A stretch of DNA of 64,000 bases from Glandiceps talaboti (lineage: Eukaryota; Hemichordata; Enteropneusta; Spengelidae): assembly GCF_964340395.1 (NCBI RefSeq), contig NC_135555.1, forward strand, positions 18,988,115-19,052,114, read 5' to 3'. The translations under genes were made by a program, and so were the position numbers. The notes under the pieces were generated by a model. It saw nothing but the letters and a program-made list of their open reading frames with translations. It had not been told where the DNA came from and searched no databases. Positions 3,140 through 49,380 of this stretch are shown here, one piece after another. Position 1 is the stretch's first letter; each line of letters starts with the position of its first letter.

Positions 3140-3262
3140 TAATGTCATTTTTTATTACAAATTCCGGCAATTATTACAAATGTCGGTTTTATTACATGAA
3201 AACGTGATTTTTATTACAAATATCGGCGTTATTACAAATTTCGGCAATTATTACAAAAGTCG
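3140..3262. repeat. Remnant of the 21-bp minisatellite
   Basis: Six or so degenerate copies of the TTATTACAAATGTCGG motif of the array at 1-1720, ending a few bases before the homology with the second segmental-duplication copy begins at about 3277. Confidence 0.7.
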
Positions 3263-3440
3263 GTTGTACAAGGGGGAGGCATGTTTGTGAGGCATTTTAC
3301 TACAACTATCTAATACTAAACCCTTATCGAAAGTCCAGGGATCCCGAATCTGAAACCATACATTGCATTATTCTCAGTATTTGCAAACACCACAGAAATC
3401 GTTTGTATTCGCTAAGGTGCTGACTTAACTACTTTATACA

Positions 3441-3630
3441 CAGGTATATCTTACTCTATTAGAAAGGATGTACTTATCTGCATCAAATATATCCATTGTA
3501 TCAGAATAGATGTAGTTGCCTGCATTATAGACAAGTATATCCAATGTATCAGAATATATGTACTTACCTGCATTATAGACAAGTATATCTACTCCATCAG
3601 AATAGATGTACTTACCTGCATTATTGACAA
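3441..3630 (-). repeat. 48-bp SDR exon-donor minisatellite, array A1
   Basis: About four units of the 48-bp repeat derived from the end of SDR exon 2 and its splice donor. On the minus strand each reads ...GTCAATAATGCAGGTAAGTA. The array is cut at 3631 by the Helentron-like insertion and resumes at 4168. Confidence 0.9.
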
Positions 3631-4167
3631 TTATATTATAGCATTACCAATTCCAGTGAATTTTGTGACGTCATCGCTGTACATTATTACTGATAATGTA
3701 CTCCGTTATTGGGCATCGCGGCCCCGGAACGAGCATAACAATACAAGCTTATGTCCGTAAGGTATTTTTTCGAAATGTATGTTGTTACCTATGATTGTCA
3801 TTTCCACTGTTTAAAAATACAACGCATTCATGAAACAAATTTGTGTTCACAGCAGTTCATTGAAGTGTATATGTGTGTGTACGTGTACGTACGTGTGTCG
3901 CTATGATTAGTATTCAGCTTCCGGGCCGAACATGGCAGACGACGTTCAGCGCTGTGTATATTATACGTTGTTTTGCGTTTCTCGGTCTACAAATTCACTG
4001 GAATTGGCAAAACTATAAAATAATAACAATAATGTACGTCCTCCCAGTCCATAATGGACTCAAGCAAACTTTGCACTCCATAATGGGCTCGGCTGTCGCC
4101 TCGCCCATTATGTCGTTCAAAGTTTGCTTTCGTCCATTATGGGCTGGGAGGGCGTACATTATTGTTT
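3631..4167. mobile_element. Helentron-like non-autonomous element, family 1, copy A
   Basis: The left end TTATATTATAGCATTACC carries CCAATTCCAGTGAATTT, which returns inverted (AAATTCACTGGAATTGG) at about 3989-4005. That inner repeat is followed by a terminal hairpin of about 140 bp whose stem reads AATAATGTACG...CGTACATTATT. The element therefore has asymmetric terminal inverted repeats plus one end hairpin, the layout known for Helitron2/Helentron-derived elements. It sits between GACAA and AAGTATATCC of the 48-bp minisatellite unit, as does the copy at 18524-19074, so it inserted before the segmental duplication. It has no coding capacity; the frame at 3873-4169 is an accident of the hairpin. 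The class assignment is an inference. Confidence 0.6.
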
Positions 4168-4458
4168 AAGTATATCCACCCCGTCAAAATAGATGTACTT
4201 ACCTACATTATAGACAAGTATATACTACTCTATCAGAATAGATGCCCTTACCTGCATTATTGATAAGTACATCCTCTCTATCAGAATAGATGCACCTAAC
4301 TGTATTATTGATAAGTATATCCACTTTATCACAATAGATGTACTTACCTGCATTATTGACAAGTATATCCACTCCATCAGAATAGATGTACTTACCTGCA
4401 TTATTGACAGGTATATCAACTCTATCAGAATATATGTACTTACCTGCATTATTGACAA
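4168..4458 (-). repeat. 48-bp SDR exon-donor minisatellite, array A2
   Basis: Six units of the 48-bp repeat between two transposon insertions. The last unit before 4458 is the displaced end of SDR exon 2 with the NNAG codons and the GTAAGT donor, separated from the rest of the exon by the element at 4459-5516. Confidence 0.88.
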
Positions 4459-5516
4459 TTATATTATACCAGTATATTGATGGTGGAAATCGAGGGATCT
4501 GATTGGTCTAGACATCGAACTAGCGCGTCTAAAACGAGTGATAATGCACTGCTGGTACGATAATGCACTGCTGGCACGCGTCCAAATTTTGTTCGCCTAC
4601 GAGCGTTGAGTTGTAGTCCGCCGTGATACTGATAGTGAACTCTTCGAATTGTCAGAGGAGGATTTTCTCTCAATGAGACAATATTTTATGAGAAATTATG
4701 AAGGAAATTTCGAAAGCAACCCAGTCATCGCGTATTTGTTCAAATCATCGCCTACTACATGTACTAAGGTCAAGGCGAGGCATGCACGAGATCGGTCGCG
4801 GTCCAAGCCTCGTCGCGGCTGGAGTGGAAACATTGGTGAGCTGTCCTGTCCTGTCATAAAAATGAAGCAAGTGAAAGAGGTTACACTGGCCGACTTACCA
4901 TTAATCTAAATAAAAATTTGTCTGGGATCCTGTCCTAGAGTATCAGTCATCAATCCGAGAGGGAAATCCTCAAACCCGAAAATCTACTGACGTAACTTCC
5001 AGTAATATAAATACATTGTAAATATCAACCTGCCGCCATGCCTATCGTCTCACTTCACCGAGTCGCGAATTCGGCCGGGAACGATCGAAGCACGCTGTAT
5101 TTAATAAACCACTTCAAGTTTATACCTTGAGTCAAACAGGTTGTTTATTCATCACTGTGCACTTTTAATGAGCCGATCAATGTACAGATTATCCCTAGAA
5201 ACGACGAGCAGATAAAATAAATCCAGTCGCTGCACGACGTTCACATTGAGGCCAAGATCAGCTGTCTTGAAAAGCAGCGTTATTGTTATGCAAATTAACA
5301 CAGAGGCGCATATGAAACGAGAAAACGTTAGTTCTTATCTTGTTTCCGATATTTTCAATATACTGGTATAATATAATAGCGATAAACCACCCCCTGGGGA
5401 AGGTATACCACTCGGTTTTGACCAGTGAACTCAATATATGCACTCGCTATCGCTCGTGCATATATTTCGTTCACTGGTCAAAACCTCTTGGTATACCAGG
5501 GGGTGGTTTATTGCTT
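4459..5516. mobile_element. Helentron-like element, family 2, long copy
   Basis: The left end TTATATTATACCAGTATATTGA is mirrored by TCAATATACTGGTATAATATA at 5355-5375. A hairpin of about 140 bp follows to the right end. Its stem includes AAACCACCCCCTGG, GGTATACC and TTTTGACCAGTGAAC with their complements, and its apex is ATATATGCACTCGCTATCG. The internal 900 bp holds an 86-codon open frame (4649-4909) that I do not recognise; it could be a captured fragment. The element splits SDR exon 2 of copy A after GGATATACTT. A 376-bp relative with most of the interior missing lies at 11703-12078. Confidence 0.6.
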
Positions 5517-6329
5517 AAGTATATCCACTCCATCAGAATAGATGTACTTGACATCTTCGTGCAGTTTCTTTGTTGAAGTCAAGTCACTCAGATCAGCTGA
5601 GATATAATGAGTTGGTATTCCATATTGTCTGACAAAAATGTAAAACGGATAGAGATATGAACGGATGTCACTAGTGAAATAAGTGAATTAGTCTGTTGTT
5701 TATTATTGCGTGTTTTAGGACATTGAAAGTAACAAGGAACGTTTAATTTGCAGGGTGTAGTCTACATATTTATAATATTACATTAGTAGTCATGTATTTA
5801 AAACAAATGTAGTTGGACTATTTGTGTCTGAGTGAAATAGCTGAACGCTACTTAATCGTACAAACGCACTTTAATATGTAAAACTTTGCGGTCTGTACTG
5901 GAAAGAAAATATTTTATTTATACTGTCAAACTTGAAAATATGTCGTAATTTTGTTTCTTGAAAATATTGTCCATAAGCGAAGATTAATACATAGGAAAGC
6001 AGAATCTTCTAACTTTAACCGTGTAAAAATGCATCTATATTCAATTTTGTATCAATACTAAAGTTAGCATTATTCGATAATAACTGCACCATTGAAACAA
6101 TTATTCATAATGCAAGTATATCATTAATTAGTAGAAACACATTAACATACGCTTCAAGTTCCATCTTTAATTTGTTTACATGTTCAGGGTGTCGGCTGCC
6201 AGTTAGTATAAGAGAACACCCCCTCCGTGCAAGACTTCGGGCTATCGCTATCCCAATTCCTCCAGAGTCACTAGATCCCGTGACCAGAGCAACTTTACCA
6301 TGATGTATACGAGATATATCAGAGTGATT
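5151..6329 (-). pseudogene. SDR/hydroxybutyrate dehydrogenase copy A, exons 1-2 only
   Basis: Exon 1 (6329-6151) and the first part of exon 2 (5628-5517) match the intact gene at 20534-13868. Exon 1 keeps the Gly-rich nucleotide-binding turn and the GTATGT donor, but the codon at the intact gene's start (6317-6315) is ATA instead of ATG. Exon 2 stops after ...SDGVDIL at 5517 because of the transposon at 4459-5516; its NNAG end and donor lie beyond it at about 4440-4458. No exons 3-8 are present in the 3.2 kb to the left. They could lie outside the window, but the start and exon damage make this a dead partial duplicate. An upstream ATG in another 5' exon cannot be excluded. Confidence 0.75.
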
Positions 6330-6387
6330 CTGTAAATAAACGAGAGTTGCTCTTCAAGCAGTCATCCAGGTATAATATGTGTAAAAC

Positions 6388-6390
<3 letters not shown>

Positions 6391-6454
<64 letters not shown>
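6391..6454. repeat. (GA)n microsatellite
   Basis: About 32 perfect GA dinucleotides. It is the counterpart of the longer tract at 20550-20676 upstream of exon 1 in duplication copy B. Confidence 0.98.
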
Positions 6455-6456
<2 letters not shown>

Positions 6457-8667
6457 GTCATTGAAACCAAAATATAAATACCAATTATTGAAGAAGTGTG
6501 GATTTTGTTTTATTGGCATCTCACTTAAATACATAGGATTGCGTAATGACAAAATGACAAACATTCTGTCTTTGTCTAACTCCTGTGGAAGCAAAAAACT
6601 GAAAATAATTACTAATCTAGTGTTTAAATATTGTTTTTGTTTTTGAGTCAAAGGTCAGGTAAGAAATAGTAATTTGTCGCCAGCTGCATGAGGACTGAAC
6701 CAATATTTCGTGTATTCTATTATTTATAACATTAGAGGTGTTAACATTCACAGACAAACCACTGTGTGATATGAATGTAATTCATAGTCAACAGTTATTT
6801 CGGCCGGGTATTTCGGAAGTGCGACGTATGAATCGAATATAGTGTAAACGAGGCTATCACGATGGGATTTTGGCATCTCACCGTTGCCACAGGCTCCACA
6901 TCCCAAATCACACAAACAGTCCGCACTTTATTTCCAAAATGGCCCTACCGCACCCCCTTTAACTACTGAAGGCTCCCCCGTACCTTACACCACTTTCTTA
7001 CCGTACTGTCATGTCATTGTTTGAATTGTCGTTTTCTGTATGGTTTATGACCGTACTTGTCGCATTAGCTAAGGAGAATATAATAATGCCCAATGATCAA
7101 TTTATATAATATGTGATACTTAACGTTGAAAGTGACGTGTTATTGCTTTAGCTTTGTGAAAATAAATTCCGATACAGACCAGATTCATCCAAGTTTTAAA
7201 AACATGATTGGTACTGAATAACAAAATGGAACCACTGTGTCACAATTCTGTATGTGTACATGTATAACCGACTGGCTACAATGCAATGGCAAATTATCGA
7301 CAGACAAGACCAATGGATCAACCAACATATAGAGGCGTTTTGATTGATTTTCACTTAAAGAATTACCCTAAAATGCAGCTACTGTACTGTTGCTGTAATG
7401 TAAGACGAGTATAGCAATGTTCTGTAGTTGTCTGAGCTCTAATAAAACATGCAATACCCTCTTGTTTTGCTACACCATTATGTTGGTTAGGGGCCTACGC
7501 ATTGGTCATTCAAGTATCAATTTAAACTGGTGTTAGCTTACCGTTGAACTTGATAGTCCTCTCACTACAAGGTACATACTTCTTAAATATCTTCTTGAGG
7601 TGATGCATCTCGAGAGAGACATTTTAAGCAAATCTTAACACTAGAATTTGTAATGGTAAAATCAGACTGTAGAGTGACCTAAATGCATACGTAATTCTAT
7701 GGTGATAAACTGGGGTGAAAGGTAGCAAAGAATTATGGTCTAGCAAACGAGGTCAGGGCCGTAGACAGACCAACAAATTGCCGGGGTGTGGGGGGGGGGG
7801 GGGGGTGCAGAACTTTATCTTGGTCCAATCCTGCATTTAAAATTTAGAAACTAGGTGGCTAATTTACATAAATGTGCATGGAATTTACATTATATCCATT
7901 TTAGCGTGCGCAATTACTTACCTATGTGTAATGTCGTATCTTTTGAAAGTAGTGGCCGAAAAGGTGTCAAATTCAAAGTAACAAAAAAAAAACCTACTTT
8001 TAAAATAAAAAATAATTGGATGACCTGCTTTCTCAAATAAGTAACACAACAAAATATCACTCTTCTTTATCCAACTATTTGCCCTACAGTCTGTGCAGGT
8101 ACAATGGGAAGTAGAATTAACATTTTGAACAGTTTTTTTTCTGTCATGCCCAAAAACGTTATGGCCTACTTTATGTCGAAATCCAATGAACTCAGTGGAC
8201 TCTACTTGTCATCATTATAATGAAAATTGAAGTTTGGATTTCGATGTTGAAGGTACAGCTCTGTTTACAAATTCAGGGCCATTCTTTCCATAGCAAATTG
8301 TCGCTTCAAAATGAATTGCGGAATAACACTAGCGTAATTGTAAATTAAAGAGATAATTATATCAAACAACATTTCAACCAAAGAGAACGTCGAACAAATT
8401 TGAAAGTAGACTTTCAAAGAGTGGATCTTAAACTGAATACCGAGTTTTTTCAGGGCCACCAAATATTCCAAAAAGAGATCTATCTGCCGTTTTATCAGTA
8501 ATGTTTTAATATAAGGAACATGATGCAAATTAGCACATCTTCAGAGTCACTGCATGCAGCAGGCGACCTCACATTGAATGACTTTTACCTATGATGTGAT
8601 AGAAAATGGTATGCTTTACCTGTCTGTTTCCTGAAAAATGTCAAAATAGACTGCTGGACGAGACGTC

Positions 8668-10960: not shown

Positions 10961-11702
10961 TTGTGTTGTAAACTATGACCATAATTGCACATGGAATCTG
11001 TTTCTTTGATCCTTAAGGATTCAAATTGCTCTGCTACGATGTTATTGATCCTAGTCATGAGTCAACATAGGCATCAAATCCATGGTGTTGCCATAGCGAC
11101 CGAATACGCCACAAAGTGCTTATGTGAACCAGGCTCCTAGGGCACGCGTACGATAGCAACATGAATAGCAGATTAAGGAGATAAGATGAGGTCAGAGGTT
11201 AGGGGTCAATTAAACAATTACTGATACCTTCAGTTACATGTAATTAGCACCACCAAAAGGGAATTTGACTGGTTATGTATTTCTCCCCAATCATTACACA
11301 ACACCATTCTGCTTTTCTGTTTCATACAACCACGCAGTAACAAATAAGAAAGCGATATCCACACTTCAATAACAAGATCGTATTTTTTGCTACATTTAGT
11401 GTAAATAAAGTAAACCATTTAAACGTAACTCCACGCACACATTCGGACGCCAATGTTTTTCTTAGTATCAAACACCGACGAAGGGTGCGTAAAATGTCCT
11501 TTGCGGTGTTATGATTTGATGTCTTCTTAGACAAAATGTAGCAAGAAACTGTACTCATTCAATCTTGCCATCTTAAAGTGTATCATTTCAAATTTTTAAT
11601 TGGTTTCTGCGTGGTTGTATCAAACAGAAAAGCTGAACGATATTGTGAAATTCGCTGTATCTATTTGCAAATATAAAACGAAGCTGTACAGTGTATTGAT
11701 AG
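10961..11702. other. Stretch without a recognised gene
   Basis: No supported exon, RNA gene or repeat array. The short minus-strand open frames here lack splice signals and recognisable motifs. Confidence 0.5.
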
Positions 11703-12078
11703 TTATATTATACCAGTATATTGATGGCGCAAATCGTGAGATCTGATTGGTGTAGACATCGAACTAGCGCGTCTAAAATGAGCGATAATGCACAGTTGGC
11801 ACTCGTCCAAATTTTGATGTTCACTGTTCGTCTAGATCGTTGTAGTCCGTGCAGGGATGGGGGCGGAAATGAAACCAGAAAATGTTGCGTCTTATCTTGT
11901 TTCCGATATTTTCAATATACTGGTATAATATAATAGCGATAAACAACCCCCTGGGAATGGTATACCACTCGGTTTTGACCAGTGAACTCAATATATGCAC
12001 TCGCTATCGCTCGTGCATATATTTCGTTCACTGGTCAAAACCTCTTGGTATACCATCCCCAGGGGTGGTTTATTGCTT
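11703..12078. mobile_element. Helentron-like element, family 2, short copy
   Basis: A 376-bp relative of 4459-5516. It has the same left end TTATATTATACCAGTATATTGA, the same inner inverted copy (about 11917-11937) and the same end hairpin with GGTATACC and TTTGACCAGTGAAC stems and a TTATTGCTT end. The internal part is reduced to about 210 bp. It lies outside the 48-bp minisatellite, which shows the family moves independently of that locus. No clear target-site duplication is visible. Confidence 0.65.
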
Positions 12079-12365
12079 AAATATATGACATGGTCACAGT
12101 AAGTTCAAGAGAGGTTTGAGATAGTTGACGAGTAACTAATCAAGCTTAGTCACACTTTTTCTTAATTGAGACTAATTACAAACCTTGGCTGTTGAAACTA
12201 ACAAAAAGCACTGATACAACAACACACATATATCAAATTTTCACTAATTAAGTTTGCAGTTGTCAAGTTGTCGTCTGACTAGTTTGCAGATAATATTTTG
12301 CATTCCCGTTTGGATGTTGACCTGAAGTAATATTCATCACATCTATTGGTATGTTATTCCAAAGT
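12079..12365. other. Stretch without a recognised gene
   Basis: AT-rich spacer between the transposon and the ATTC microsatellite; nothing recognisable. Confidence 0.5.
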
Positions 12366-13867: not shown

Positions 13868-15422
13868 TTATTTAGCGCCAAACCCTCCATCGATAGGAAT
13901 GGCTGTACCAGTGATCTGGTCAGCAGCAGGAGAACACAGAAATGCTGCTAATTCGCCAATCTGTGGAGAGGAGATAGATAGGTAGATAAAGTCATAGAAC
14001 CAATAAGTGTTAAATATCAAAATATCTTGAATTTCTTCACTCGTTTATTTCAACATGAGATGTTTATTAAGTGGGTTGTTTGGATGTTCCTGGGTTATTG
14101 GTAGAATATAATTGTTGAATACAGAAATTGTACGAATAAGTGAATGGCAGAGTTATCTAAAGTGAAAGAATAGAAAATATAAGATAAAGTTCGGAGTGGC
14201 ATTTTATTGAGAAAAATTGTTTTTTTTTCGAACAGCGTCAAGATATATGTATGTACTCTTACAAGAGATATTCATTTTTTAAACATCAGAAAAATAAATT
14301 TGACATTTTAAACCTCCGCTTTAAAGAACTGTGTTATTCTGGTATTACATTCAATAATATCACACAAGACAGCATAACTATTGTATTAAGTGGTGGATTC
14401 GAAGTAATGTTAGGTTGACGATATGCTGAAAACAAAGTAAGGAAACGTTACAATCCTACTTACCTGATCGGTTTCTATGTACTTGCCGGATGGGTTTAAC
14501 GCCTCCAATAATTGTTTCTTTACAGAAGGAGAAAAGGGACAAGGGAATTAAAAACCACTTGAATGGTAAATTTAATTTTTTTAAATATAGTCTTGGGTTT
14601 TACTGAAGTTTCGTGTCGGTATTTGACATCATGTACGTCTGTTGTTAAAATGATATTTCCCCGAAATTAACAAATGTGTTTAATTTAAATAGCAAAATAT
14701 GTCAAAAAGATGAATATCGGAGTATTCACATTTGTCGTTATAAAACAAAATTACATCGAAAGTATTGATATTTGCTATCTAAAATTATTCAATAATATGA
14801 TATATAATGCTATCCTAGGCATATACACTGCCATAGAAAGACATGTTTAGTCATACAGGCTTCACATCACAAATGATGTGGTAACGCCCATTTATAATGA
14901 AAGCAATTGGCTAGACTTACTTCTGTCTCTTCTTTGGGTTGTCCCATCTTAATGGAGAACTGTCTAATTATGTGTTCCGTCACTGTAAACATAGACAAAT
15001 AAAGAAACGTACATACATACATACATACATACATACATACATACATACATACATACATGCACACACACACTCACAAATATATACTAGTGCTCAGGCATGC
15101 TTGGTCATACGTATGTACGTGATTGTTTGACTAGGATTATTTAAGTATCAAATTGTAATATATTGGTTGACAATAACCGAAAGAAAAAGAAACTGATTAA
15201 CAAATGTAATAACTGTTGGAATATATTCCAAATAAGCTAACATTATTTTAAGACGTTGAGATCATAATGTGAAGCAACTCACTGACTGTATATGAAAGAG
15301 CTGGGCAGATGGCATTACATGTCACTCCTGAGCCTAGAGTTTCCAGTGCAACCACCTGTTAATTAAAACACACGATATATGTTAATAATAAACAATAGAC
15401 TCCTCTGTTGAATGAAAACAGA

Positions 15423-15565: not shown

Positions 15566-18500
15566 AGAAGGAGGAGGTAAGGGACAGGAGGAAATACAGA
15601 ATGGGCAAAATCGCTTGATAGCTGTCGTGGCACATCAGATTAATTGGCAGTTCGCCACAATATCAACACCAACTATATCGGACAATGTTAACATTGGACG
15701 GACCTTTGTGAGACCATTCATTCCATGCTTAGATGTAATATAAGGAGCACCAAGAGGAGTTCCAGCCAGTCCAACGATTGAACTGATGTTGATTACCCGT
15801 CCCCAAGCTATGTGAATACAGAAAAGAAAATATCTAAACATACATTATGACATAATCATTAAAAAAACATGTAAGGAAATTTTCAAATTGAAATTGTGAG
15901 TACGTATTTAATAGTTATATCTCCTTTAAGGAGACACGTGACACTTGTAAATGATAGAAAGAGGTAATCATAAAATGTCCGTGCTCGACTCAAGTTAGAT
16001 ATTGGAACAACAGCGAAGGTCATGTATGTCTTCCGTAGTTTAATTTTGAAATTAAATTAACAAGGTCTAACTATGTTTATTACTGATTCTTATACATTTC
16101 TAATCAATAGCATTTGGATATTGAATATCGTAATCTGGAATGGACCACTCAGTAAAATGAATAGAATTTCATTTCACTTACAAAACGAGAACATGACATA
16201 AAATAATCAAATATGTACAATAGCTAATAATATAAAAACTACAATACATGTTTACAATAATATATGATAGCATACTTTTGGTGAGGCCCATGGATATAGT
16301 CCACTAGGGACTAATCTAGTCCATGATCCTAACTAATAGATGGAATGATAAATACACTAACACCGTACAAACATCAAATAAGATGTTAACAATGACATGT
16401 TGTTGTTGTTGTTGTTGTTGTTTTTGCTGTTACAATCTAATTTTGAAACTAACTATGTCTAAATAGTTTAATGGACATTACTATAAATTTCAACTGATTG
16501 AAATAAACTTGAGTAGAGAAATAACAACTTAAAACAAAAGTTAGAAAAATTGTTACTTCTGAAGTTAGCTAACCTTTTTGTTTCATGTTCGCCAAGGTCA
16601 GTTGCGTTAGATAAAAGCCAGCTGTCAAATTTATTCGAAGGCTTTTTTCGAAGTCGTCAATGGGTATTTCTTCAACTACATTAGGCGCAACGAATATACC
16701 TGGGAATTTGCAAAATAAAGATAATGAATATGGAAATAAGTTACGTCTCATCTACGCATTTCAAAGACGATGACTCAAATAATTTTACTATGGGAATCAC
16801 GAATACTCGTGTTCTTGATATCAGAATGAACCAAATGATGTATCTTCACATGTTATGATGTTGCTAAGTATTCGGTGGAATGATTTGCCTTTCTAGGAGT
16901 GGGAGGGGGATGGCGATGGGGTGGTGATGGGCATGTTTGTGAGAGATTTTACTACAACTATCTAATATTAAACCCTTATCGAAAGTCCATGGATCCAGAA
17001 TCTGAAACAATATATTGCATTATTCTCAGTATTTGCAACCACCACAGCAATCATTTGTATTAGCTAAGGTGTTGTGTTGACCTAACTACTTTATACACAG
17101 GTATTTCCTACACTATCAGAAAGGATGTACTTACCTGCATTATTGACAAGTGTATACACTGTATCAGAACAGATATACTTAATGTACCTGTATTATTGAC
17201 AAGTAAATCCACTCCGTCAGAATATATGTACTTACCTGCAATATTGACAAGACTATCCACTCCGTCAGAATAAATGTACTTACCTGCATTATTGACAAAT
17301 ATATTCACTCTGTCAGAATAGACGTAGTTACATGCATTATGGACAAATATATTCAGACAGAATAGATGTACTTACCTCTAGTAGTGCATTGGGAATTGCA
17401 CTCCGATACACGGGACCTCTATTTTACGTCCTGTCCGAGGGGCAAAAGTAAAGTATAAAAAGGAATAAAAAATACATGAGACATACAAGTGTACAAATAT
17501 CCATACGTTGTACAGAGGAGGCAAAATGCATTGTTGGAAACCTTAGTGATCAATAAAAGAACAAGACCCTGCTAGAGAATTACAGCACCAGGTCTTGCTG
17601 CACTGTTTTCTGTCAGTTTAAGGAACAGGTCCAGACAGCTCATAAATCACAAGTGCTCTAGTAAGCCAGGTGAATTGCCTACATCTCTTGAATGACCCAG
17701 TCACGTATTCTATATCATACCTTGCCAAAGATAACATGAAGCATGATTACATGAATTACACAGGATTACAGTCTGCCTGTCAATGGTGCTATTAAATGTT
17801 TATGCACTCGGCATTTGAAAGACTGGAAACAATCAATCTTAATTTTTCCTACGACTGCATCTGGAAGGTTGTTCCACATTCTTATTTCAGAGTGAAGAAA
17901 ACTACTATCCAGTGTAGATGTTTTTGAAGTTGGCATAGTAAGGGCAAGTATATCCACTCCATCAAAATAAATGTACTTACCTGCATTATTGATAAGTATA
18001 TCCTCTCTATCACAATAGATGTATTCACCTGCATTATTGATAAGTATATCCACTTTATCAGAATAGATGTACTTACCTGCATTAGTGACAAGTATATGCA
18101 CTCTATCAGAAGAGATGTACCTATGTGCAATATTGACAAGAATATCCACTCTATCAGAATAGATGTACTTACCTGCATTATTATCATGTTCATACACTGT
18201 ATCAGAAAAGATTTACTTACCTGCAATATAGACAAGTATATCCACTACGTCGGAATAAATGTACTCACCTGCATTATTGACAAGTATAGCCACTTTGTCC
18301 GAATAGATGTACTTACCTGCATTGCTGACAGCTATATCCACTCCGTTCTAATAGATGTACTTACCTGCATTATTGACAAGTATAAACTTTCTATCAGAAG
18401 AGATGTACTTACCTGCATTATTGACAGGTATTTCCACTCCATCAGAATAGATGTACTTACCTGCATTATTGACAAGTATATTCACTCTGTCAGAATAGAT

Positions 18501-20534
18501 GTACTTACCTGCATTATTGACAATTATATTATAGCATTACCAATTCCAGTGATTTTTGTAACGTCATCGCTGTACATTATTACTAATAATGTACTCCGTT
18601 ATTGGACATCGCGGCCCCGGAACGAGCATAACAATACAAGCTTATTCCGTAAGGCAATAAAGGTGTGGGTATTTAAGAACAGGGAAATTATGGGGTAAAC
18701 ACCATAAGAATATTTTTTTAAAAGATTGAAATTAAAATGAAACAAATTTGTATTCACAGCAGTTCATTGAAGTGTATACATGTGTGTACGTGTACGTACG
18801 TGTGTCGCTATGATTAGTATTCAGCTTCCGGGCCGAACATGGCAGACGATGTTCAGCGCTGTGTATATTATACGTTGTTTTGCGTTTCACGGTCTACAAA
18901 TTCACTGGAATTGGCAAAACTATAAATTAATAACAATAATGTACGCCCTCCCAGTCCATAATGGACTCAAGCAAACTTTGAACGACATAATGGGCGAGGC
19001 GACAGCCGAGCCCATTATGTCGTTCAAAGTTTGCTTTCGTCCATTATGGGCTGGGAGGGCGCACATTATTGTTCAAGTATATCCACTGTATCAGAATACA
19101 TGTACTTACCTGCATTATTAACAAGTATATGCACTCTATCAGAATAGATGTACTTACCTGCATTATAGACAAGTATATCCACTACGTCGGAATAAATGTA
19201 CTTACCTGCATTATTGACAAGTATAGCCACTCCATCAGAATAGATGTACTTACCTGCATTATTGGCAAGTACATCCACTCTGTCAGAAGAGATATACTTA
19301 CCTGCATTATTGATAAGTATGTCCACTCCGTCGGAATAAATGTACTTACCTGCATTATTGATAAGTATATCAACACCATCAGAATAGATGTACTTACCTG
19401 CATTATTGACAAATATATTCACTCTGTCAGAATAGACGTAGTTACATGCATTATGGACAAATATATTCAGACAGAATAGATGTACTTACCTCTAGTAGTC
19501 ACAAGTATATCCACTGTATCAGAATAGATGTGCTTACATGCATTATAGTTTAATATATCCACTGTGTCAGAATAGATGTACTTAACTGCATTATAGACAT
19601 GTATATCCACTCTATCAGAATAGATGTACTTACTTGCAATATTGACAAGCCTATCCACTCCATCAGAATAGATGTACTTACCTGCATTATTGACAAGTAT
19701 ATCCACTCCGTCAGAATAGATGTACTTGACATCTTCGTGCAGTTTCTTTGTTGAAGTCAAGTCACTCAGATCAGCTGAGATATAATGAGTTGGTATTCCA
19801 TATTGTCTGAGAAAAATGTAAAAGGAATATAGATATAAGAAAGTGTGTCACATATGAAATATGTGAATTAGTCTGTTGTATATGATTGTGTGTTTTGTGA
19901 CATTGAAAGTAACAAGGAACATTCAGTTGTTATGGTACCGGTGTAGTCTACATCTTTGTAATAGTACATATAAGTAGTCATGTATTTGAAAAAAATTAGT
20001 TGAACTATTTGTGTCTGAGTGAAACAGCTGAACCCAACTTAATCAAACAAACGCACACGTATGTAAACAGATTGCGGTCTGTACTAGAAACAAAATGTTT
20101 TATTTATACTGTCAAACTTGAAAATATGTCGTAATTTTGTCTCTTGAAAATATTGTCCGTAAGGGAAGATTACATGTATTACATAGGAAAGTAGAATCTT
20201 CTAAGTTTAGCTATAACCGTGTAAAAATACATCTATATTCAATTTTGTATCACCACTAAAGAAAGCATTATTCGATAATAACTGCACCATTCAAAGATGA
20301 AACAATTATTCATAATGCAACTATATCATTAATTAGTAGAACCACATTAACATACGCTTCAAGTTCCGTCTTTAATTTGTTTACATGTTCAGGTTGTCGG
20401 CTGCCAGTCAGTATAAGAGAACACCCCCTCCGTGCAAGACTTCGGGCTATCGCTATTCCAATTCCTCCAGACTCACTAGATCCAGTTACCAGGGCAACTT
20501 TACCATGATGTGTACGAGACATATCAGATTTATC
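13868..20534 (-). CDS. SDR-family 3-hydroxybutyrate dehydrogenase, 8 exons
   Basis: Predicted NAD(P)-dependent short-chain dehydrogenase of 267 aa, closest in motif pattern to bacterial-type D-3-hydroxybutyrate dehydrogenases (3-hydroxybutyrate to acetoacetate). Coding exons on the minus strand: 20522-20356, 19806-19682, 16699-16574, 15807-15704, 15355-15283, 14982-14921, 14517-14464, 13960-13868. All joins have GT-AG ends and keep frame. Visible motifs: a Gly-rich turn TGSSESGGIG at 13-22 (longer than the usual TGxxxGxG), NNAG at 95-98, catalytic S149, Y162 and K166 (YITSK), and a C-terminal IDGGFGAK. The start at 20522 follows a splice acceptor at 20535-20536, so a 5' non-coding exon lies further right. 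Intron 2 (19681-16700) contains the 48-bp minisatellite copied from the end of exon 2. Substrate is inferred from family likeness. Confidence 0.9.
15008..15058. repeat. (CATA)n microsatellite in SDR intron 5
   Basis: About 13 CATA repeats immediately beyond the exon 6 acceptor side; no coding role. Confidence 0.95.
15420..15560. repeat. (GA)n with GACA interruptions in SDR intron 4
   Basis: Purine-rich GA tract with GACA variants on the left and a pure GA run on the right, ending in a G-rich tail. It lies in the intron between exons 4 and 5. Confidence 0.97.
17104..17371 (-). repeat. 48-bp SDR exon-donor minisatellite, array B1
   Basis: Five to six units, distal in intron 2 of the intact gene. 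It is separated from the next units by a LINE tail at 17372-17943. Units differ by point changes, and several keep the GTAAGT donor. Confidence 0.9.
17372..17943 (-). mobile_element. 5'-truncated non-LTR LINE, 3' end
   Basis: The minus-strand frame ending at 17766 reads SSFLHSEIRMWNNLPDAVV and onward to a stop. It matches the conserved C-terminal tail (arginine, then W-N-x-LP) found after the reverse transcriptase of jockey/CR1/L2-type LINEs. About 390 bp of 3' untranslated sequence follows to 17372. Only the last ~58 codons remain. It is inserted in the 48-bp array: right flank AAGTATATCC, left flank CTCTAGTAGT, the latter also seen uninterrupted at about 19490-19500. Confidence 0.7.
17944..18523 (-). 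repeat. 48-bp SDR exon-donor minisatellite, array B2
   Basis: About twelve units. On the minus strand most of them read in one frame as variants of KYIYSDGVDILVNNAG. Exact ACTTACCTGCA (donor complement) occurs in most units. Confidence 0.93.
18524..19074. mobile_element. Helentron-like non-autonomous element, family 1, copy B
   Basis: Same element as 3631-4167, at the same point of the 48-bp unit, with the same ends and hairpin. The hairpin stem here is nearly perfect: CAAACTTTGAACGACATAAT pairs with ATTATGTCGTTCAAAGTTTG. It adds about 14 bp of interior relative to copy A. Confidence 0.6.
19075..19681 (-). repeat. 48-bp SDR exon-donor minisatellite, array B3
   Basis: About twelve and a half units directly downstream of exon 2's own donor (GT at 19681-19680). 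The exon end itself, AAGTACATC...AATGCAGGT, is unit zero. Reading on from the exon, the frame stays open for about six units as KYIYSDGVD-type repeats until a stop near 19467. The next stretch, 19422-19066, is open in register for seven more. Confidence 0.95.
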
Positions 20535-20548
20535 CTGTAAATAAATGA

Positions 20549-20678
<130 letters not shown>

Positions 20679-23277
20679 GTCATTGCAACCAATATGAAAG
20701 TACTAATTATTGAAAAATTGTGGATTTTGTTCTATTGGCATCTCACTTAAATACATAGCAGGATTGCGTAAGTGAAAATCATATCATCTGATATGTCGTA
20801 CATATAATTACAATGGTAACCGATTGTAAATCTCCTTGGGAGAGAATGAATTTGACCATAGGGTCTTTGTATATGGTTTGACTAACCCAATACAAAACAT
20901 TGGAAGACATTTTGCAACTATCAGACTGCCTCATTAAAAAGACAAAATGACAAACATTCTCTGTCTAACTCCTATGGAAGCAAGAAATGGAAAATAATTA
21001 CTAATCTAGTGTTTAAATAATGTGTTTTTATTTTTGAGTCAAAAGTCAGGGAAGAAATAACAATTCAAAGTGTCGCCAGCTACATGAGCACTGAACCAGT
21101 ATTTCGTGTATTCTATTATTTATAACATTAGAGGTGTTAACATTCACAGACAGGCCACTGTGTGATATGAATGTAATTCATATTCAATAGTTATTTCGGC
21201 CGGGTATTTCGGAAGTGCGACGTATGAATCGAATATAGGGTAAACCGCACTTTATTTCCAAATGGCCCTCCCGCACCCCCTTTAACTACTGAAGGCTCTC
21301 TTAGGTCCCCCGTACCTTACACCACTTTCTTACCGTACTGTCATGACATTGTTTGGATTGTCGTTTTCTGTATGGTTTATGACCTTACTTGTCGCATCAG
21401 CTAAGGAGAATATAATAATGCCCAGGGACCAATATATATAATGTATGATACTTAACGTTGAATGTGACGTGTTATTGCTTTAGTTTTGTGAAAATAAATT
21501 CCGATACAGACCAGATTCATCCAAGTTTTAAAAACATGATTGGTACTGAATAACAAAATGGAACCATTGTGTCACAATTCTGTACGTGTACATGTATAAC
21601 CGACTGGCTACAATGCAATGGCAAATTATCGGCAGACAAGACCAATGGATCAACCAACATATAGAGGCGTTTTGATTGATTTTCACTTACAGAATTACCC
21701 TAAAATGCAGCTACTGTACTGTTGCTGTAATGTGAGACCACTATAGCAATGTTCTGTAGTTGTCCGTGCTCTAATCAAACATTCAATACGTTCTTGTTTT
21801 GCTACACCATTATGTTGGTTAGGTGTCTAAGTATAGGTCATTCAAGTATTAATTTAAACTGGTGTTAGCTTACCGTTGAACTTGATAATCCTCTCACTGC
21901 AAGGTACATACTTCTTAAATCTCTTCTTGACGTGATGCATCTTAAGAGAGACATTTTAAACAAATCTTAACATTAGTATTTGTTATATACAGAGAGAATC
22001 AGCATGTATAGTGACATATATGCATACGTAATATTATGTATGGTTATCCTATGGGGTGATGGGTAGTTCACAGAATTATGGTCTAGTAAACGAGGTCAGG
22101 GCCGTAGATAGACCAACAAATTGCCCCCCCCCCCCGGGGGGGGGAGGCAGAGCTTTACCGTGGTGCAATCATGCATTTAAAATTTAGAAAGGTGGCTAAT
22201 TTACATAAATATGCATTCAATTTACATTATACCCATTTTAGCGTACGCAATTACATATCAACGTGTAATGTCGTATCTTTTGAAAGTATGGTTGCCGAAA
22301 AGATATCACATTCAAAGTAAAAAAAAAATTTAAATTAAAAAGAATTGGATGACCTGCTTTCTTAAATACGTAACACAACAAAATAACCTTCTTCTTTATC
22401 CAACTATTTGCCCTACAGTCTGTGCAGGTACAATTGGAAGTAGAACTAACATTTTTAACATATTTTATTTCTGTCATTCTCAAAAACTTTATGCCTACTT
22501 TATGTCGAAATCCAAAGTGAATACAGTAAATTCTACTTGTCATCATTATAATGAAAATTGAAGTTTGGATTTTGATGTCGAAGGTACAGCTCTGTTTACA
22601 AATTCAGGGTCATTCTTTCCATAACAAATTGTCGCTTCAAAATGAAGTAAATGTAAATTAATGAGATAATTATATCAAACACCATTTCAACCAAAGACAA
22701 CGTCGAACACAATTGAAAGTGAATCTTTAAAGAATGGATCTTAAACTGCGTACCTAGTTTAATAGTTTTTCAGGGCCACCAAATATTCCAAAAAGAGATC
22801 TGCCGTTTTATCAGTAAATGTTTTAATATAAGGAACAAGATGCAACTTAGATCGATAGCATCTTCAGAGTCACTGTATGCAGCAGACGGCCTTACGCTGA
22901 ACGACTTTTACCTTTGACGTGATAGAAAATGGTATGCTTAGCCTGTCTGTTTCCTGAAAAATGTCAAAATAGACTGCTGGACGAGACGTCGTTTTTTTTA
23001 GCTTCGCTCTCTGGTATTATTGTGACTAGCTGTCTAGATCTTCAAATGAAGGAGACTGGACACATTTTTATTCCAAGTTAAGCCAGTACATTTAATTTTG
23101 ACTTTAGTGAACCATCAATTCAAAGCGAGCGTACTAGGAATCGTTATTAACAACATGGCTATGTATTCGAAAAGTTTGTTTACTTCTTTCCTAAACATCT
23201 GCCCACCCCCCCACCCCCTCCCTCAGGCTCCGGTACAAAGAGTAAGTCATGTCAGGATTCTAATTTTGCACAATTGT

Positions 23278-31068: not shown

Positions 31069-42020
<10,952 letters not shown>

Positions 42021-46930: not shown

Positions 46931-47689
46931 TAACATAATACAACCAACGATATGACATTGAGAATTTTCACCACAGGCCTCCACTTGCACATCATAGTCA
47001 TTGATCAGTCTATAAAACGACACAGACAGTTGATAAGGTTAACTTTGTATTTCATGCCAATACACGGTGTACGTATCGTGGATCTTTTATTTCCTCAATA
47101 CGGGTAGTCTGTTGTGTTTTCAAGTCTCGTTATTGTAAACGAGAACGAGAATCATTTCTTGGAGGAACGAGAATCGTTGGCGAAATACACATAGTCCCTA
47201 TTGTTGTATGCATTGCGTTGTGCATATATCTGTATAAGTGCAATACCACTAAATATTTATACAATAGCTAGACCTTTTTGAGAACCCTCGTTATTGCGTT
47301 CTTGTTGGTATGTGATGAATCTGAACAATAATAATAAAACAACAAAAACCATGCATGTATATGATATCAATACAATAGGCATACTCTGTATGGTATCGCG
47401 CCAGTGTGGCGTACTTGAGTGTAACTATTGTGCGGGCTGCGGGTCACTGCAGGTCTATTATTTTTCCATTTTCATTAATTTATTCACTTTTTAAAACCCA
47501 AGAAACTTGTTTGCTGACCACTGGGGGTAGCTTATTTGTGTAGGTCACTCGCTACATGCACTGTACTATTCGATAGAACCTACGTGCTGGGCTAATTCTG
47601 CACACAATTTGTGTATATCCCCCCCTTTAAAAGTGATGGCTATTAAAAAAATGATTAGTTAGCATATAGCATCGACTTCAGAAAATATA

Positions 47690-49380
47690 ATTCCACTCAA
47701 CCTCTTTCCCATATAATCAATCTCTCTTTTTCCGATGGTATGTTCCCTGAGGCACTCAAGAACGCAAAAGTCACCCCACTGTACAAAAAAAGGTCCCGAT
47801 TCAACGTAGGAAACTACAGGCCGATATCTGTCCTTTCAATATTCAGCAAAATTTGTGAAACTATTGTAATCAAACAGATTATCTCCTTTCTTGAAAAGTA
47901 TGACATACTCTCTGCCACTCAATATGGCTTTAGAAAAAAGTACAGCACCAAACTGGCTCTTGTCAACATCATTAAGGAAATAACAGAAAGTCTGAATAGC
48001 GGCAATACTACCATTGGCGTCTTCATAGATCTTAAAAAAGCCTTTGACACTATAGACCATGATATTCTATTACGCAAATTAGAAATGTACGGGGTCAGAG
48101 GTCACCCTTTAAAATGGTTTCGAAGCTATCTCAACAAACGTCCTCAAACTGTAACTATTCATAATGTTTCATCGAATTCCCAACAAATTAAATGCGGAGT
48201 GCCTCAGGGATCTATCCTCGGTCCTACTCTTTTCCTTCTTTACATAAATGACATAAGCAATTCTACAGACTACTTTCAATTTAGGTTATTCGCAGATGAC
48301 ACAAATTTATTCAGATCAACTCACATGAATGCCATAAATCTTGACATTATCAATGCAGAATTCAGTAAGGTAGTTACTTGGTGTTTGGCTAACAAACTTA
48401 CAGTAAATGAAGAGAAAACTAATTTCATGCTAATAAGTACGCCTCAACGTCAAATAACATTGCAAGGTAGTATCTCTGTCAATAACACACAAATAGAGCG
48501 AGTTTCCTCAACTAGTTATCTTGGTGTAAATATTGATTCTTCACTTTCTTGGAATTGTCATATTAACAACATACTAAAAGTTGTAACCCCAAAGATCGGA
48601 ATCATTTCAAAAATTAGACATTTTGTTCCCAAGTCAATACTAATTACCATTTACAACACATTCATTTTACCGCACTTAACATATTGCATAGAAATCTGGG
48701 GCAACACTTACTTAACTATTCTGCATCCACTTTTCCGTCTTCAAAAGAAACTCGTTCGTCTTATAACTTTCTCTGACTTCCATGCTCACTCCGCACCACT
48801 ATTCCGAAAACTTGTCATTCTTAACATCTTTCAACTATGTGAATTCTACTCCTGTATATTTGCTTTTGACCTGATGAATAACCACTACCCCCACGATATA
48901 GAGACATACTTCCAGTATCCCGTAACAACATATTCAACACGTCAAGCATATCAGGGTAATTTCCGTATACCACTAACCCGTTTAAGAATTACTCAACACA
49001 ACTTCCAATACGCCATAACTAAGCACTGGAACTCATTACCGCCATCCCTCAAATGTATAAATTCAAGAAAATCATTCAAAGAAGAACTAAGAAATCACAT
49101 CGTATCTAAGACCTAAGGGCTTGTTTGTTTTGTATGTAACTTAGTGTGTATATTGCTTACAGAAAACTTGTTTTCAGATGTTTTTGTTTTATTTTTATTT
49201 TCTGTTTTGTAGTTTATATGTTGTGTGTCTGGGCCATTGGATTAAGACTAGTTCCACTGAACTATTTCCATGGCCCTCACCAGGGAGGGTGACCATGCAA
49301 TACTAAATTATATTTTTTGTCATGTACATTTTCCCAGTCTAAGTTCTGTCATTCTTTTTGGTGAAAATAAAATGAGTTAC
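47690..49380 (+). mobile_element. 5'-truncated CR1/L2-like LINE
   Basis: The coding part runs to 49116, with 458 codons from the ATG at 47740 and homology starting near 47690. It is the reverse transcriptase half of ORF2: NYRPISVLSIFSK, FIDLKKAFDTIDHDIL (motif A), GVPQGSILGPTLFLLYIND (motif B), FADDTNLF (motif C with the catalytic DD), and the C-terminal WNSLP segment. The frame is uninterrupted, which suggests recent insertion. The endonuclease half and 5' end are absent, as is usual for incomplete reverse transcription. About 260 bp of 3' untranslated sequence follows, ending near GAAAATAAAATGAGTTAC. The clade is judged from motif style only. Confidence 0.85.

Follow-up and report, generated by a model that had tools for sequence, protein, structure and literature searches.

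In a stretch of 64,000 bp from the acorn worm Glandiceps talaboti (Hemichordata, Enteropneusta, Spengelidae; contig NC_135555.1, positions 18,988,115 to 19,052,114, hereafter the window), intron 2 of a minus-strand gene for a short-chain dehydrogenase (SDR), present in two copies A and B, contains a tandem array whose 48-bp unit is the end of exon 2 together with the adjoining 5′ splice site. The array is a new example of the repeats known as mirages in amphioxus, which are tandem minisatellites of exon/intron boundaries, many of them with AG/GT, in Adh3 and the globin genes BflGb6 and BflGb9 (PMC3087553). We consider it likely that the array is a neutrally drifting intronic minisatellite of this type that is spliced out with intron 2 from the donor of its first unit, termed unit zero, as the copies have the appearance of drifting intron sequence and not of added protein.

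Both gene copies encode an SDR (PF00106, E 1e-45), and the best relatives in the PDB are D-3-hydroxybutyrate dehydrogenases (2yz7, E 5.3e-53). In the alignment with homologues the protein shows the SDR motifs TGxxxGIG, NNAG, and YxxxK. The predicted duplication of the gene region was recovered as a segmental duplication of 3278-8667 (copy A) and 16930-22990 (copy B), which match in pieces. All coding exons of the NCBI model of copy B, P0001 (LOC144438051, 403 amino acids), lie inside the window, with the last coding base at 13871 followed by the stop, and P0001 residues 1-333 were rebuilt exactly from the window DNA (333 of 333 assembled residues). For copy A, modelled by NCBI as P0003, five later exons are intact to the left of the window in stretch L018. 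Probable mitochondrial-targeting first exons were seen at 7542-7622 in copy A (MSLSRCITSRRYLRSMYLVVRGLSSST) and, in the copy B form, at 21874-21954; the latter was identified by similarity to P0003 and is left out of P0001. The exons of the two copies are as follows:
20356-20522, minus strand: copy B exon 1, exact translation of P0001 residues 1-56
19682-19806, minus strand: copy B exon 2, ending CAG|GTAAGT
16574-16699, minus strand: copy B exon 3 (P0001 model)
15704-15807, minus strand: copy B exon 4 (P0001 model)
15287-15355, minus strand: copy B exon 5 (P0001 model)
14464-14517, minus strand: copy B exon KQLLEALNPSGKYIETDQ, whose donor at 14458-14466 is the sole CAGGTAAGT outside the arrays
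13871-13960, minus strand: coding part of the last exon of copy B (P0001 model)
6151-6329, minus strand: copy A exon 1, present in P0003
5548-5628, minus strand: copy A exon 2 of P0003, ending at the weak donor AA|GTACATC

Unit zero (19680-19727, minus strand) comprises the last 46 nt of exon 2 and the intronic GT and reads KYIYSDGVDILVNNAG, in agreement with the original prediction that an exon end with its 5′ splice site was the source unit. Tandem Repeats Finder (TRF) reported 48-bp arrays in three blocks of copy B, 19064-19727 (13.9 copies), 17945-18529 (12.2), and 17097-17377 (5.8), and in two blocks of copy A, 4168-4464 (6.2) and 3484-3636 (3.2), amounting to 31.9 and 9.4 units, respectively, with matches of 76-88%. 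For the exact sequence GCAGGTAAGT, 25 minus-strand occurrences were counted (20 in copy B, including unit zero, and five in copy A), which is far above chance and fits the about two dozen exact units counted before; outside the arrays it was absent from the window, and the plus strand had none. The unit length of 48 bp or 16 codons was likewise confirmed, but not for every step, since spacing is shifted by -4 at 19444 and 17330 and by +5 at 17181-17185, and larger breaks occur where elements were inserted. The array belongs to the mirage type in that its unit spans an exon/intron boundary, its units are imperfect and of minisatellite size (10-160 bp in the cited mirage cases), AG/GT signals are kept in many units, and its length varies between paralogs. 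Its parts are:
19064-19679, minus strand: copy B array block 1, 13 aligned rows after unit zero, the five nearest donors mostly degraded
17931-18529, minus strand: copy B array block 2
17097-17377, minus strand: copy B array block 3 and terminal partial unit
3470-4464, minus strand: copy A array, containing a fold-back element at about 3637-4167

A search of the organism's own genome with the unit gave at least 37 matches, and among those listed the unit was located only on the window's contig (C8) and on two other contigs of the assembly (C5 and C6). Nine 10-kb stretches from the matching contigs and two stretches left of the window were compared. Four C6 paralogs carry the exon end once and lack an array, L014 on C5 has one degenerate further copy, and L010, L011, and L013 have one clear further unit each in the same 48-bp register, the one of L013 being interrupted by an element. 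L009 contains about six further units and L012 ten, the last of which is truncated. Across the paralogs the number of further units is therefore 0, one, about 6, about 9 (copy A), 10, or about 31 (copy B). The distal flank after the partial unit is common to L009, L010, L011, and copies A and B. This shared flank suggests a single seed duplication followed by separate expansions. The start of the pre-array intron, where microhomology at the seed duplication would be sought, is not preserved.

The exon-2 segment has been conserved across SDR homologues, bacterial ones as well as those of hemichordates and other animals. In an alignment of 39 of the 120 best hits, drawn from 8000 scored candidates, 37 homologues have no insert at this point, the two exceptions being the window's own genes, and the aligned proteins of Ptychodera and Saccoglossus have none here. 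When the repeat region was used as a protein query, P0001, P0003, and P0004 (the model of L011) were the only hits. Because the homologues conserve the segment without an insert and the C6 paralogs carry it singly, the array arose from the exon, as had been proposed. The reverse, an array as the origin of the exon, was considered and is ruled out by the conservation of the segment in hemichordate and bacterial SDRs and by the array-free C6 paralogs.

The exon-2 donor is CAG|GTAAGT in the repeat-bearing clade (GTAAGA in L011) and CAG|GTAAAT in the four C6 paralogs; L014, L015, L016, and L017 were compared for their exon 2 donors alongside this clade. Duplexes with the 5′ end of U1 had energies of -11.0 to -13.7 kcal/mol for the donors of the repeat clade and of -8.3 kcal/mol for the one C6 donor tested. 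In the window, 24 of 37 sites (including unit zero) are perfect CAG|GUAAGU matches with -13.5 to -14.0 kcal/mol, compared to -2.4 to -5.6 kcal/mol for four other donors of the gene. Positions +3 to +8 of the donor are filled by the codons AAG TAC, with which the next unit begins, and this may have improved the donor.

The units beyond the exon appear to evolve almost without coding constraint. When only indel-free 48-bp units were counted and truncated units, indel-bearing units, and the cut unit of copy A were excluded, the ratio of nonsynonymous to synonymous polymorphism (pN/pS) was 0.23 for the exon units of seven C5/C8 genes (0.33 with the four C6 genes added) and 0.84 for 46 array units; within loci it was 0.86 in copy B, 1.01 in copy A, 1.27 in L009, and 0.86 in L012. 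Purifying selection on repeat codons, as expected for a protein-coding repeat domain, was not detected in this comparison of 46 array with seven exon units. Neither the substitutions at the three codon positions (55/51/45 in 32 window units) nor the steps on the tree (36/40/29) gave a coding signature, and an in-frame stop is present in two of the 46 array units. Protection of the donor nonamer on the tree was not significant (15 of 105 steps, 19.7 expected, P 0.15), and selection on the donors was thus unsupported after counting changes on the tree. Concerted evolution by locus was also rejected as a general process, as the mean difference was 8.1 within and 7.0 between loci; the array of L009 alone is homogeneous (mean difference 2.8, 4 units).

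The following scenario would account for these data. In the ancestor of the C5/C8 paralogs, a 48-bp stretch comprising the exon 2 end and the adjoining 5′ splice site would have been tandemly duplicated, and we infer that slippage or unequal exchange later led to different unit numbers in each paralog. The data indicate protein selection on unit zero and nearly neutral drift of the other units, which as intron DNA also gather transposon insertions. We further infer that splicing most likely proceeds from the unit-zero donor, in which case the whole array would leave with intron 2.

Several observations weigh against this scenario. The predicted NCBI models of both window copies, P0001 and P0003, include array units. 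CAG|GTAAGT is found in none of the five units nearest to exon 2 and in 24 of the 32 others (P 0.003; a hand count over both copies with truncated units excluded and a post hoc test), and this decay of proximal donors could reflect selection against decoys instead of decay at the array edge. By raw substitution counts the donor window varies less than most windows (rank 3 of 48, with ties), and an in-frame stop occurs in only two of 32 window units, where a crude simulation predicts about five. The array acceptors in P0001 and P0003, five in all, are poorer in pyrimidines at positions -20 to -5 (50-62%) than eight authentic acceptors (62-94%), but the two ranges touch at the authentic acceptor of exon 5 with 62.5%. 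Moreover, the intron-proximal one of two equal donors is often preferred, and if this applies here, use of unit zero is not guaranteed.

One alternative is that the array is translated, either by use of alternative donors or by inclusion of units as small exons, so that the SDR would gain residues in multiples of 16. The original prediction had envisaged such an in-frame extension, with frames remaining open over runs of several units. Read on from exon 2, the frame of copy B is open only through unit 4 and ends at a stop at 19469, and a plain donor shift is open to +64 residues at most. Before this stop there are three in-frame donors, the weak ones at +48 (CAA|GTAAGT, -7.0) and +144 (CAT|GTAAGC, -4.4) and the strong one at +192 (GAG|GTAAGT, the donor of unit 4, -12.1), and the remaining strong donors lie past the stop. 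Open runs do exist farther down the array, e.g., 19066-19485 with 139 codons, but need additional splicing to join exon 2. The predicted extension is thus limited to these three donors in copy B. Among the paralogs it is best matched by L012, which has five strong in-frame donors from +48 to +336 ahead of any stop and whose frame stays uninterrupted over nine further complete units and into the truncated tenth. However, the predicted models P0002 (L012) and P0004 (L011), which were matched exon by exon, contain unit zero only, as does P0005 (L013), matched to residue 234 at the end of its stretch, and the sole complete extra unit of L011 is 49 bp long, which is a frameshift.

In favour of translation, unit zero is followed in P0001 by eight and a half units or 136 residues encoded by four array exons, the first three of which are joined at AG|GT boundaries:
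19206-19397, minus strand: array exon of P0001, 192 nt, four units, begins GTAAGT
18413-18508, minus strand: array exon of P0001, 96 nt, reproduced exactly
17981-18076, minus strand: array exon of P0001, 96 nt, reproduced exactly
17135-17158, minus strand: array exon of P0001, 24 nt, reproduced exactly
The exons of 96 nt begin GTAAGT as well. Against translation stand the little or no coding constraint on the units, the predicted models of the three paralogs with unit zero as their only unit, the restriction of the insert to the window's two copies among the 39 homologues, and the pyrimidine-poor acceptors of the modelled array exons. In the AlphaFold model of P0001, residues 101-236 have a predicted local distance difference test (pLDDT) score of about 30-49, whereas the SDR core mostly exceeds 90, which is weak evidence since an insert without aligned relatives scores low anyway. 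A comparable case is the lancelet gene PGBD5, in whose gene model 108-bp repeats became an exon of 57 residues that the authors judged a misprediction (PMC3902484). We therefore regard translation of the array as unlikely; neither the way in which the units evolve nor the sister gene models support the function proposed for it.

Copy A raises the possibility that an array unit replaced a broken exon end. Its unit zero reads ...GATATACTT, is then interrupted by an element of about 1.05 kb, and continues with TTGTCAATAATGCAG|GTAAGT. In P0003, a weak donor ahead of the break is joined to the array units 4394 and 4346. The features concerned are:
5517-5549, minus strand: 5′ part of copy A unit zero, severed by the transposable element
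4465-5516, no strand assigned: transposable element with a fold-back end inside copy A unit zero, ends approximate
4348-4421, minus strand: array exon in P0003, supplies VDIPVNNAGKYIYSDGVDILVNNA, exact in P0003

According to this explanation, splicing of copy A would reach an array unit that provides strand beta-4, NNAG, and a donor, and the array would have rescued the gene. In the AlphaFold model of P0003, unit 4346 builds beta-4 (residues 133-136, block pLDDT 97) in an otherwise normal SDR fold, and the 50 Foldseek matches listed for this model are hydroxybutyrate dehydrogenases and other SDRs. P0003 is full length, with five of its later exons intact, and a comparison of exons 1-2 and the targeting exon between copies A and B (123 codons) gave a ratio of nonsynonymous to synonymous substitution rates (dN/dS) of 0.37 (P 0.03). 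At the ten residues that differ between the copies, P0004 agrees by eye with A in six cases and with B in three, the last being a gap. On the other hand, the predicted splice sites of P0003 are weak (AA|GTACATC and GATAG|AGTT), the insertion may be recent, in which case intact exons carry little weight, and exon 3 of P0003, which is a prediction only, was not located in the sequence examined, where 2,500 bases read N. The data on copy A fit rescue by the array, but they also fit an erroneous gene model or an insertion of recent date, and we consider rescue improbable. A broader version of the idea, which we regard as doubtful, is that the array is a store of spare exon ends: copy A would have survived a transposon hit on donor and NNAG by splicing into an intact unit, with strand, motif, and donor restored in frame, and since an intact boundary between units reads CAG|GTAAGT, mis-splicing into the array would either be silent through re-splicing or add modules of 16 residues.

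The boundary CAG|GTAAGT is also the core of the ratchet points of recursive splicing. The unit is built such that exon 2, once spliced to the AG of an intact copy, is again followed by GTAAGT, so that splicing could be repeated and would leave no trace in the mRNA. The GTAAGT starts of the P0001 array exons of 192 and 96 nt fit this self-healing process, and such exons are suppressed by strong regenerated donors in Drosophila (PMC8605326). The array resembles ratchet points in the juxtaposition of acceptor and donor, but differs from them by the lack of a strong polypyrimidine tract, as seen in the 50-62% pyrimidines at the five acceptors tested, and by an intron of just about 3 kb, whereas Drosophila ratchet points are mostly in long introns (PMC8605326). 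Recursive splicing is thus very unlikely. That the donors act as decoys or as U1-binding sites which tune splicing or protect the transcript, as their perfect U1 matches might suggest, is almost certainly wrong, since the donor of exon 14464-14517 is equally perfect (CAG|GTAAGT) and strength is thus not specific to the array, the donor columns show no significant conservation, the proximal donors have decayed, and the number of further copies ranges from 0 to about 31 across paralogs.

Besides the element in copy A unit zero, the arrays contain further insertions:
18530-19063, no strand assigned: fold-back repeat element within the copy B array, with a 142-bp inverted repeat at 18932-19073
17378-17930, no strand assigned: further inserted stretch in copy B only, without a copy A counterpart among the self-matches
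Copies A (about 3637-4167) and B carry the fold-back element at a corresponding point of the array, and it therefore predates the segmental duplication. The copy A element at 4465-5516 has a relative at 11694-12086 (92.4% identity over 225 columns and 89.0% over 109). The elements at 4465-5516, 3637-4167, 18530-19063, 11694-12086, and near 5202 in L013 start with TTATATTATA and end with ATTG(T/C)TTAA or ATTGTTCAA. The insertion point within the 48-bp unit is the same in copy A, in the central insert of both copies and, apparently, in L013, where one end is visible. This common point may reflect a target preference, and the array may act as a transposon trap.

Other repeats in the window include a 41-bp satellite with about 40 copies (77-1678 and 3150-3265), which adjoins the end of the homology between copies A and B, and a 30/44-bp tandem repeat at 41008-41194 (TRF 41030-41194), whose first copy begins about 5 bases after an apparent exon donor (GTAAGTATGTCAG) of what we take to be a channel gene. 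The latter may be another repeat that originated at a 5′ splice site. A stop-to-stop frame of 485 codons at 47659-49116 presumably resembles the reverse transcriptase of a long interspersed nuclear element.

The original prediction held that no system had been described in which the junction of a coding exon and its 5′ splice site is itself the repeat unit. This does not stand, as mirages in amphioxus repeat exon/intron boundaries in tandem, and those of PGBD5 adjoin a 5′ splice site (PMC3087553; PMC3902484). Mirages are variable in length, undergo repeat turnover, and escape homogenisation at cluster edges; regular splicing was reported to be undisturbed, and they were proposed as a route to intron gain (PMC3087553). 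The array described here shares with them the tandem arrangement, the boundary-spanning unit, the splice signals, and the variable length. It differs in that it occurs in a hemichordate, that the unit is near 48 bp or 16 codons in all paralogs seen, that it forms a series within a gene family whose units do not cluster by locus overall, and that copy B has about 32 copies, compared to 6 and 3 in two BflGb6 haplotypes (PMC3087553). In lancelet PGBD5, imperfect 60-bp and 108-bp tandem repeats adjoin the 5′ splice site, of which one assembly has as many as 7 and 6 copies (PMC3902484); position and divisibility of the unit length by three are the same as here, whereas gene and phylum differ and the copies are fewer. 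Tandem duplication across splice sites led to intron gain in a potato RdRp gene (PMC4974935), and human tandem repeats at exon-intron boundaries indicate that duplications bearing splice signals can create introns or exons (PMC2812944), but the copies described here lie inside an existing intron.

A literature search, mostly without subscription papers, found no hemichordate mirage, and the array may be the first mirage minisatellite outside cephalochordates. For the annotation of this genome it means that repeats of an intron may have been translated in the public model LOC144438051. Copy A is a specific instance where such repeats could have made up for a damaged splice site. The paralogs of this single gene form a natural series, in which the exon-end unit has from 0 to about 31 additional copies, which makes the proposal that such repeats seed introns and exons directly testable.

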